A DNA stretch of 64,000 bases from Roseospira goensis (lineage in GTDB: Bacteria > Pseudomonadota > Alphaproteobacteria > Rhodospirillales > Rhodospirillaceae): contig NZ_JACIGI010000005.1 in NCBI RefSeq assembly GCF_014197795.1, positions 147,419-211,418 on the forward strand. The letters run 5' to 3'. Positions 12,784-15,079 of this stretch are shown in pieces. Below the pieces are notes generated by a model. It saw only the letters and a list, made by a program, of their open reading frames with translations. It ran no database searches and was not told the origin of the DNA. How positions within the stretch are numbered: the stretch's first letter is position 1; every line of letters starts with the position of its first letter. Both the position numbers and the translations under genes were made by a program.

Positions 12784-13656
12784 ATGGGGCTCGGGGTGAA
12801 GTTCAACCTGGTCCTGCTGGGGGCGTTCGCGATCGGTCTGGCGATCGCCGCCGCCCTGGCCTACCAGGTGGTGCAGGCCAACGCGCGCGCCGAGGTGCTC
12901 GCCCACGCCCGTATCATGATGGCCAACGCCATCGCCGTCCGCGAGTACACCGCGACGGAGATCCGGCCCTTGCTCGGGACCGGGCGCGAGGGGGTGTTCC
13001 TGCCCCATGTGGTGCCGTCGTTCGCGGCCCAGAGCAACTTCCGCCGCATGGCCGACGAGTTCCCCGAGTACGCCTACAAGGAGGCGGCTCTCAACCCCAC
13101 CAACCCCGCCGACCGCGCCACCGACTGGGAGGCCGACATCATCCGCGCCTTCCGGCAGGATCCCGCGCAGGCGGAGATCGTGACCGAGCGCGACACGCCG
13201 TCCGGCCGCAGCCTGGTGCTGGCGCGCCCGCTGACGGTGGACGACGCCAGTTGCCTTGACTGCCACAGCACCCCGGAGGCGGCGCCGGCGGCCATGGTGG
13301 CGACCTACGGCCCCAGCAACGGGTTCGGCTGGGAACTGGGCGAGACGGTGGGCGCCCAGGTGGTCTCGGTGCCGATGGCGCTGCCGCTGGAGCGGGCCTG
13401 GACCAAGTTCCTGGTGTTCGTCGGCACGCTGACCGTGGTGTTCGTGACCGTGGCGGTGCTCATCAACGTGCTGTTGAACGCGCTGGTGATCCGGCCGGTG
13501 GTGAAGCTGTCGCGGATGGCGGACACGGTCAGCCTGGGCAAGATGGACGCGCCCGAGGTCACGCACGCCAGCCAGGACGAGATCGGCGCGCTGGCCGCCG
13601 CCTTCAACCGCATGCGGCGCAGCCTGGAGACGGCGCTGCGCATGCTGGGCGGCTGA
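12784..13656 (+). CDS. Membrane c-type heme sensor protein (DUF3365/Tll0287-like domain with HAMP)
   Basis: This 290-residue protein has a transmembrane helix at residues 8-29, a periplasmic domain at about 30-205, a second helix at about 209-231 and a HAMP linker at about 232-285. The periplasmic domain carries one covalent heme motif, CLDCH at residues 157-161, and a Met at 171. Its pattern matches the Tll0287-like/DUF3365 redox-sensor fold. After HAMP there is no kinase, cyclase or methyl-accepting domain. The next gene, a Ser/Thr kinase, begins 13 bases later, so the natural reading is that the two proteins work together in trans. The start has GGGAGGCG. Domain identity is fairly firm; the partnership is inference. 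Confidence 0.85.
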   Translation: MGLGVKFNLVLLGAFAIGLAIAAALAYQVVQANARAEVLAHARIMMANAIAVREYTATEIRPLLGTGREGVFLPHVVPSFAAQSNFRRMADEFPEYAYKEAALNPTNPADRATDWEADIIRAFRQDPAQAEIVTERDTPSGRSLVLARPLTVDDASCLDCHSTPEAAPAAMVATYGPSNGFGWELGETVGAQVVSVPMALPLERAWTKFLVFVGTLTVVFVTVAVLINVLLNALVIRPVVKLSRMADTVSLGKMDAPEVTHASQDEIGALAAAFNRMRRSLETALRMLGG

Positions 13657-13669
13657 GGCGGAGGCCGGC

Positions 13670-15079
13670 ATGGCCCGGGAACCGGAGCCCGTCGACGACG
13701 CGACCCGCGTCGCCCCGGCGCGACCGGCGCGGCCGGCGCGCATCGGCCGCTACCGGGTCGACGGCGAGTTGGGCCGGGGGGCGATGGGCGTGGTCTACGC
13801 CGCCCACGACGAGAGCATCGACCGCCCGGTGGCGCTCAAGACCGTGCATGCCGACCTGCTGGCGGGCGAGGACGGCGCCGCCTGGCGGGCGCGGTTCCAG
13901 CGCGAGGCCAAGGCGGCCGCGCGCTGCCTGCATCCCAACATCGTCACGGTGTTCGAGTACGGCGAGGACGCCGGCCTGGCCTATCTGGCGATGGAGTACG
14001 TGCGCGGCCGGCCGCTCCAGGCGTTCCTGGCCCACGGGGTGCAGTTCGGAGTCCGCATCAGCCTGCGCATGATCCTGCAGGTCCTGGATGGTCTCGGCGC
14101 GGCGCACGCCTTCGGCATCGTCCACCGCGACATCAAGCCGAGCAACATCATCCTGCTGGCCGAGGGCAAGGTGAAGGTGACCGACTTCGGCATCGCCCGC
14201 CTGGACTCGGCGGTGTCGCTGTCCCAGCACGGCACCATGGTGGGCACGCCCGGCTACATGGCGCCGGAGCAGTTCACCGGGGCGACAGTCGACGCCCGCA
14301 CCGACCTGTTCGCGGTCGGGGTCGTGCTCTACGAACTGCTGACCGGGCAGAAGCCGTTCCCCGGCGCCACCGTGCCCGAGGTCATGCATGCCGTCCTCAA
14401 CCGGCCGCCGGTGCCGCCGGTGGGCCGCCCGGACCCGCTGCCGCCGGCGCTGGTGGCGGCGCTTGAGGGAGCCCTGGCGCGCGACCCGGAGGCCCGGCCG
14501 GCTGATGCCGCGACCCTGGCGCGGGTGCTGAAGGGTGTCTTGCGCGGTGCGCCGGCCGAGCGCGCGGCCCCCGATCCGGACGCCACCCGGGTGATGGCGC
14601 CGGTGGCGGCCGGCGATCGCGGTGAACTGGACGACGCCGCGCTGCGCCAGGCCGGCGCCCATCTGGCGAGCTACATCGGGCCGGTGGCGTCGGTGGTGGT
14701 GCGCGAGGCCGCGCCCCGCGTCAGCGGCATCCGCCACCTGTACGAGGTGCTGGCCGACCACATCCCGGGCGAGGCCGAGCGTCGCGCCTTCCTGCGCGCG
14801 GCGACGCGGGCCGCGCTGGGGCTGGGCCGGGAGACGGCCGTTGCGGCGCCGGCGACGGCTCCGGCCCCGCCGGGCGGCGCGCCGGCCGGCGGGGTGGACG
14901 ATGCCGCCGCCGAGCGGGTCCGGCTGGCGCTGGCCCAGCACCTGGGGCCGATCGCCGGCGTCCTGGTCCGCCAGGCCCGGGCCGAGGCCCGCGACGCCGC
15001 CCACTTGGCCGTCCTGGTGGCGGACCAGATCGCCGATCCGGAGGCGCGCGCGCGTTTCCTCGACGCGGCGCGGGGATGA
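13670..15079 (+). CDS. Cytoplasmic serine/threonine protein kinase (PknB type) with C-terminal duplicated domain
   Basis: Residues 27-285 form a Hanks-type kinase: glycine loop GRGAMGVVYA, catalytic Lys57 (ALKTV), HRDIKPSN at 152-159, DFG at 172-174 and GTPGYMAPE in the activation segment. All key catalytic residues are present, so it should be active. There is no transmembrane helix and no PASTA domain. The C-terminus carries two related units of about 60 residues (roughly 320-385 and 408-468) with the shared pattern H-L-x-x-x-I-G-P-I/V-A-x-V-L-V-R. Such repeats occur in other bacterial kinases, but I cannot name their role. Spacing to the upstream heme sensor (13 bases) suggests one transcript. 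It converges on the helicase gene. Confidence 0.92.
   Translation: MAREPEPVDDATRVAPARPARPARIGRYRVDGELGRGAMGVVYAAHDESIDRPVALKTVHADLLAGEDGAAWRARFQREAKAAARCLHPNIVTVFEYGEDAGLAYLAMEYVRGRPLQAFLAHGVQFGVRISLRMILQVLDGLGAAHAFGIVHRDIKPSNIILLAEGKVKVTDFGIARLDSAVSLSQHGTMVGTPGYMAPEQFTGATVDARTDLFAVGVVLYELLTGQKPFPGATVPEVMHAVLNRPPVPPVGRPDPLPPALVAALEGALARDPEARPADAATLARVLKGVLRGAPAERAAPDPDATRVMAPVAAGDRGELDDAALRQAGAHLASYIGPVASVVVREAAPRVSGIRHLYEVLADHIPGEAERRAFLRAATRAALGLGRETAVAAPATAPAPPGGAPAGGVDDAAAERVRLALAQHLGPIAGVLVRQARAEARDAAHLAVLVADQIADPEARARFLDAARG

Follow-up and report, generated by a model that had tools for sequence, protein, structure and literature searches.

A 64,000-nucleotide stretch of the Roseospira goensis genome (contig NZ_JACIGI010000005.1, positions 147,419 to 211,418; hereafter the window) carries two adjacent genes that probably constitute a two-gene transmembrane module, wherein a heme sensor that ends at its HAMP domain signals in trans to STAC-like repeats, and these repeats bear swappable effectors. 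An initial annotation of the window had described the first product as a sensor lacking an output, with two transmembrane (TM) helices, one CxxCH motif at residues 157-161 and a HAMP domain followed by a stop, and the second, directly after it, as a Hanks kinase that has all its catalytic residues and a pair of related repeats at its C-terminus. Both descriptions hold, the former on sequence and Pfam evidence and the latter (13670-15079) on Pfam and the aligned catalytic columns. The features are given below; coordinates are positions in the window, and residue numbers are those of each protein.

12784..13656, + strand: output-less heme sensor, 290 amino acids (aa): TM1, Tll0287/sCache_heme, TM2, HAMP, stop
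12877..13374, + strand: Tll0287-like (PF11845) periplasmic sensor domain, residues 32-197
13252..13266, + strand: CxxCH covalent heme-c motif CLDCH, residues 157-161 (from sequence)
13480..13629, + strand: HAMP domain, residues 233-282 (Pfam, 40.2 bits)
13609..13638, + strand: HAMP-end motif RMRRSLETAL, candidate STAC-docking end of the HAMP helix
13670..15079, + strand: Hanks-type Ser/Thr kinase, cytoplasmic, 469 aa, two C-terminal STAC-like repeats
13751..14503, + strand: protein kinase domain, residues 28-278 (Pfam Pkinase, 163.3 bits; catalytic residues intact)
14627..14812, + strand: STAC-like repeat 1, motif IGPVA (78.9 bits to repeat profile A3)
14897..15076, + strand: STAC-like repeat 2, motif LGPIA

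The sensor and its repeat-bearing partners

The periplasmic domain of the sensor matches PF11845 with 137.5 bits (curated cut-off 24.1) and has a Cache-type fold like that of 5B82. The protein stops 8 residues past the HAMP match and hence has no output domain after HAMP. In the kinase, the glycine loop, the VAIK lysine, the HRD aspartate, DFG and APE are all present and form invariant columns across 10 aligned kinases. The repeats that follow are about 55 residues long; repeat 1 is also found by a hidden Markov model built without the window rows, and its confident structure model is helical.

A species scan with the sensor alignment covered 84,980 species and gave at least 566 relatives, the best 80 of which were kept. 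Two of these (L088 and L075) are one contig and were counted once, leaving 79 distinct loci. The best 80 come from alpha-, beta- and gammaproteobacteria and from metagenome-assembled genome records named Acidobacteria, Myxococcaceae and Deltaproteobacteria. A repeat-bearing gene adjoins the sensor in 73 of the 79 loci. It lies directly downstream on the same strand in 71 (median gap 20 base pairs; in three cases the start was chosen mechanically and the values of -399 to -540 are artefacts) and is convergent in two. Six loci have no adjacent repeat: the contigs of L097, L109, L152 and L158 end 153-703 bases past the sensor, and no adjacent repeat gene is present in L163 or in the 1.5 kb of sequence remaining in L144. 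The pair therefore recurs across genomes, as the initial annotation had proposed to check by a neighbourhood search, so that the lack of recurrence which it named as refuting does not hold, and the possibility that the two genes are one-off neighbours was rejected. That sensor and repeat protein form a conserved module is well supported by these comparisons of gene order.

Closer relatives present the same picture. A full-length sensor relative occurs in three of six other species of the genus. Tll0287 domains occur in 55 of 385 genomes of the class, where most of the best non-self matches of the sensor share its layout; a kinase adjoins the sensor in G003, G004, G005, G105, G163, G245 and G430, and twice in G450. 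Tll0287 loci of approximately 300 aa (L077, L079, L080, L191-L193) yielded no sensor of the window family at E 1e-6.

The partner is most often a kinase (66 of the 79 loci), with nine cyclase-like proteins, one repeat-only fragment at a contig end and three loci without a call. The 66 kinases comprise 60 that are window-like, two of another subfamily and four kinase-cyclase fusions, and include the window-like L097, L152 and L158, which are cut by contig ends, and the convergent gene of L115. A further repeat-bearing kinase lies upstream of the sensor in L092 and L102. In two more relatives, L071 and L076, the gene after the sensor encodes an MscS-type channel that bears a single repeat (52.3 and 42.5 bits to MS_channel_2nd). 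Partners were called cyclase-like by their similarity to the protein of L092; the Pfam family Guanylate_cyc scores above its cut-off in L092 and L216, just under it in L133 and not at all in L139. These cyclase-like, fusion and MscS-type partners led us to reject a kinase-specific pairing. Weaker evidence comes from a quick sensor tree (long branches, 35 of 101 inner branches open), on which the output label changes 12 times, the minimum possible being nine. Two repeats are found in 55 of the 58 window-like kinases counted, the window's own included, and one, two or three in the cyclase-like partners, so that repeat number is not simply a mirror of the HAMP dimer. To judge from these loci, it is well supported that the C-terminal repeat is what stays constant, whereas the output can be exchanged and the kinase is one form of it among several.

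A profile of the repeat gave 14 matches in eight of the 385 class genomes. Thirteen sit in nine proteins encoded beside output-less sensors of the window family, among them both MscS-type proteins, although neither had been used to seed the profile. The remaining match, in G462 (23 bits), lacks a sensor of this kind nearby. In the phylum, six of 398 genomes carry the repeat, and the sensor is adjacent in five, three of which are shared with the class sample; in the sixth, G551, the match is weak and partial and the sensor is not adjacent. The Tll0287 domain, by comparison, occurs in 124 of the 398. On these counts, the repeat tracks the output-less sensor layout and not the Tll0287 domain as such. 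Since the profile was seeded from sensor neighbours, its presence beside sensors is partly by construction; since at most 15-16 first-look candidates were scored per genome, its absence elsewhere is strong and not exhaustive.

Among 170 genomes of another order, the repeat occurs at 27 loci in 22 genomes. A sensor of the window family adjoins 17 of these loci (G700 and G702 included), and gene order can flip, the repeat gene preceding the sensor in L205, L210, L211 and L213. At three others the partner likewise ends at HAMP and has another kind of input. In L225 and L226, an output-less dCache_1-HAMP receptor precedes a small repeat protein, that of L226 with a sub-threshold DUF4388 match. L222 encodes a 230-aa receptor (3133-3825) with the TM and HAMP parts of the family and no cysteine, next to a double-repeat protein (3980-4711) wherein a catalytic domain is not obvious. 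L207 lies at a contig end, and one weak match, L227, was not recovered.

The end of the HAMP domain is itself conserved. For this comparison 98 family sensors were counted; L155 (a mis-picked frame) and L068, L187, L188, L197 and L198 (other layout or no partner) were excluded, and L109, L144 and L163 were kept despite no repeat being seen. The terminal HAMP residues Ser280 and Ala284 are invariant in all 98, and 94 match the pattern R-[ML]-x-x-S-[LMVI]-x-x-A-[MLIFV]. The same pattern is present in the dCache-HAMP proteins of L225 and L226; L222 keeps the serine and the alanine and not the full pattern, and the HAMP ends of L188 and L197 are without it. Longer proteins of relatives supplied 28 HAMP regions as a control, and the pattern is in none of them; some of these rows were first anchored outside the true HAMP end, and a search of each entire region with 30 additional residues likewise gave none of 28. 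A second control of only two regions gave a single match, L040, which is itself an MscS-paired sensor. This conservation makes the motif the best candidate for a docking site.

The ligand of the heme sensor

The Tll0287 domain, also called DUF3365, is renamed sCache_heme in PMC12889525, the main text of which lacks the words 'serine', 'threonine' and 'operon'. A P. azotoformans protein described there (WP_033902098) resembles the window sensor in combining a CxxCH-bearing Cache domain with a pair of TM helices and a HAMP domain. This protein has no axial cysteine, and is reported to bind nitric oxide (NO) tightly and to release it slowly. The CxxCH motif is kept in 97 of the 98 family sensors. 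The exception, L078 (5647-6516, genome G430), has CxxCY and perhaps no covalent heme; its partner is still a repeat-bearing kinase.

The initial annotation held that the HAMP protein passes periplasmic redox state to the kinase in trans. Its trans component gains support from the recurrence of the pair; its redox component is doubtful, given the missing axial cysteine and the NO binding of the relative. A role of the sensor in reporting the redox state or in electron transfer, in place of NO binding, is possible but rather unlikely. It would fit the stand-alone Tll0287-type protein, which looks redox-related in the same paper, and the window genome gave no match to cytochrome cd1 nitrite reductase, the only NO source looked for. 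The heme of that stand-alone protein, however, is Cys/His-ligated, and no family sensor of the 98 has a cysteine besides the CxxC pair at about residues 33-200, so that the axial cysteine of the redox subtype is absent from the family. The lack of a further cysteine, together with NO binding by a HAMP-linked relative, makes NO, by analogy, the more likely ligand than redox state.

The relation of the repeat to STAC

An identity of the repeat with a domain already in Pfam or NCBIfam was rejected, since none of their families matched more than three of 62 members at E <= 0.01. We assign it with moderate confidence to STAC because it carries a GPxA motif, because Af1502 is its top structural match and because HAMP-terminated receptors are encoded adjacent to it. 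The STAC motif is defined as LGPx(x)A in PMC4834066. The relaxed form [LIVMF]GPx(x)A is present in 192 of the 218 repeats scoring at least 30 bits, and the strict leucine in 59 of the 218; in the window, repeat 2 (LGPIA) is exact and repeat 1 reads IGPVA.

The fold reference for STAC is the four-helix bundle 5A1Q; Foldseek on the repeat model gave a lowest E of 1.4. In profile searches Af1502 appeared third of ten (E 0.21, aligned over EIGPIAKIF) and, with another repeat profile, last of four (E 0.87); it is not among the matches listed for profile A3 against the PDB. Such figures might indicate that the repeat is a small helical HAMP-docking domain unrelated to STAC, its likeness to Af1502 arising by coincidence or convergence. 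We consider this unlikely. Weak E-values are expected, since ordinary sequence searches fail to join Af1502 even to other STAC proteins, as PMC4834066 states. Furthermore, the same protein comes first in the structural comparison and third or fourth in two profile searches, and it contains the same GPIAK stretch. It is also encoded beside a HAMP-terminated receptor, Af1503, whose HAMP is the closest PDB sequence match of the sensor HAMP and ends in the same motif.

The initial annotation knew of no characterised system of this form; the archaeal pair of Af1503, a receptor ending at HAMP with no recognised effector, and Af1502, the STAC protein encoded next to it, is such a precedent (PMC4834066). 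In Archaeoglobus, as in the window, the receptor stops at HAMP and the neighbouring gene encodes a small helical GPxA protein, to which it is translationally coupled. In contrast to the window module, with its heme Cache sensor and its STAC-like repeats fused to kinases, cyclases or channels, the Archaeoglobus pair is archaeal and tied to transporter genes, and its STAC protein stands alone at 68 aa with no known effector (PMC4834066). The SLC5-STAC histidine kinases CbrA and CrbS offer a second likeness, in that STAC, placed between membrane module and output, makes packing contacts with the membrane domain (PMC13022988). There, STAC acts in cis, after a transporter and ahead of a histidine kinase, whereas the window repeat would act in trans, follows its effector and is paired with HAMP.

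Probable signalling in trans and its possible consequences

The conserved gene arrangement strongly supports the view that the HAMP protein signals in trans to the kinase. There are exceptions to the pairing. Of the 27 repeat loci of the other order, L206, L215, L221, L223 and L224 have no HAMP partner in the stretch fetched, four of them being in genomes with a pair elsewhere. A strict rule is also contradicted by the Rippkaea plasmid sensor L197 and by L188, whose HAMP match is below cut-off; both of these lack an output as well as a repeat partner.

It is conceivable that the sensor and the repeat protein are co-transcribed and serve one response without contact, the repeats being oligomerisation or autoinhibitory elements and HAMP acting elsewhere. 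The existence of repeat proteins with no nearby sensor would fit this. So would the absence of evidence for contact: mutual information between HAMP and repeats gave no specific signal (80 pairs, effective number 56) and was uninformative. We nevertheless judge this explanation quite improbable, as the repeat is common to unrelated effectors and lies mostly beside HAMP-terminated receptors of different inputs. Also, the relatives with a fused output, L187 (GGDEF-like) and L198 (cyclic nucleotide monophosphate-binding-like, both read from sequence and not by profile search), show no repeat protein alongside within the sequence fetched; these two examples match what a trans-receiver predicts.

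A mechanism for signalling in trans can be proposed. The periplasmic Cache domain of the sensor would bind c-type heme and most likely sense NO. Heme ligation may shift the Cache dimer, and TM2 would relay the change to the HAMP dimer, a route established for other receptors. The HAMP end would then present or hide a site for the repeats of the second protein. Repeat binding or geometry would follow the HAMP state, so that the effector, here a Ser/Thr kinase, is recruited or re-oriented at the membrane and thereby switched. The repeat would thus serve as a general trans-receiver for HAMP-terminated receptors, onto which kinases, class III cyclase-like proteins, kinase-cyclase fusions, MscS-type channels or small proteins could be plugged.

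Least probable among the alternatives, and in our estimate very unlikely, is a role for the kinase in activating a type VI secretion system (T6SS) in the manner of PpkA, with the sensor as its private input. Of six proteobacterial plasmid records opened (L194-L196, L199-L201), five have T6SS genes beside the relative (Skermanella, three Caballeronia and Paraburkholderia, not Rhodovulum), and PP2C phosphatase genes follow in two of these five. The PpkA/PppA threonine phosphorylation pathway of T6SS likewise uses a Hanks kinase, sometimes a PP2C, and control from the periplasmic side. On the other side, any T6SS-type match occurs in only 11 of 97 loci, at least one of which, the window's own, is probably ClpB (the single TssH-type match, 33813-36602). 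The window has no match to TssB, TssC, TagF, Hcp or TssM, and the TssB/TssC-type genes of its genome are on another contig (G000:C30, L202) with their own PP2C and kinase genes. A role as a T6SS module was therefore rejected as the general one. Moreover, PpkA of A. citrulli has its own TM and periplasmic domain, according to PMC12607579, whereas the window kinase has no TM or periplasmic domain match and its sensor is a separate protein. The open-access literature gave nothing on DUF3365 together with type VI secretion.

Other neighbours were observed. A FecR-like gene, similar to a Caballeronia FecR-domain annotation, lies just upstream of the sensor in 24 of 97 loci (for example L089:1134-2114 and L115:4036-4998, the latter without a Pfam match) and is possibly a third, periplasmic component. 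A second clustered neighbour family is present in 15 loci; its example L158:1709-2326 has no Pfam match below E 0.08. In the window, a GC-rich unit of 82 bases is repeated 7.3 times in tandem (18979-19580) after a glutamine amidotransferase-like gene.

As far as our searches show, what is new in this arrangement is its bacterial heme-sensor version and, most of all, the fusion of effectors to the receiver. Among the matches listed, the open-access literature named no STAC-Ser/Thr-kinase protein and had nothing relevant on HAMP, Ser/Thr kinase and heme in combination.

Bacterial membrane receptors use HAMP as a standard relay, for which Af1503 has been one of the main structural models. Natural HAMP-ended receptors with recognisable enzymes on the presumed receiver would make HAMP output assayable in trans, as phosphorylation or cyclic nucleotide. 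Whether STAC is a general trans-receiver of HAMP in bacteria and archaea seems to us evenly balanced; this would be a third layout of transmembrane signalling, wherein receptors end at HAMP and any STAC effector plugs in. If so, the missing effectors of Af1503-type receptors would be explained, and one heme/NO sensor class would drive kinases, nucleotide cyclases and mechanosensitive-type channels via the same interface. This newly described sensor class would gain a Ser/Thr-kinase, cyclase or channel output, and the receiver would offer a plug-in part for engineered signalling.
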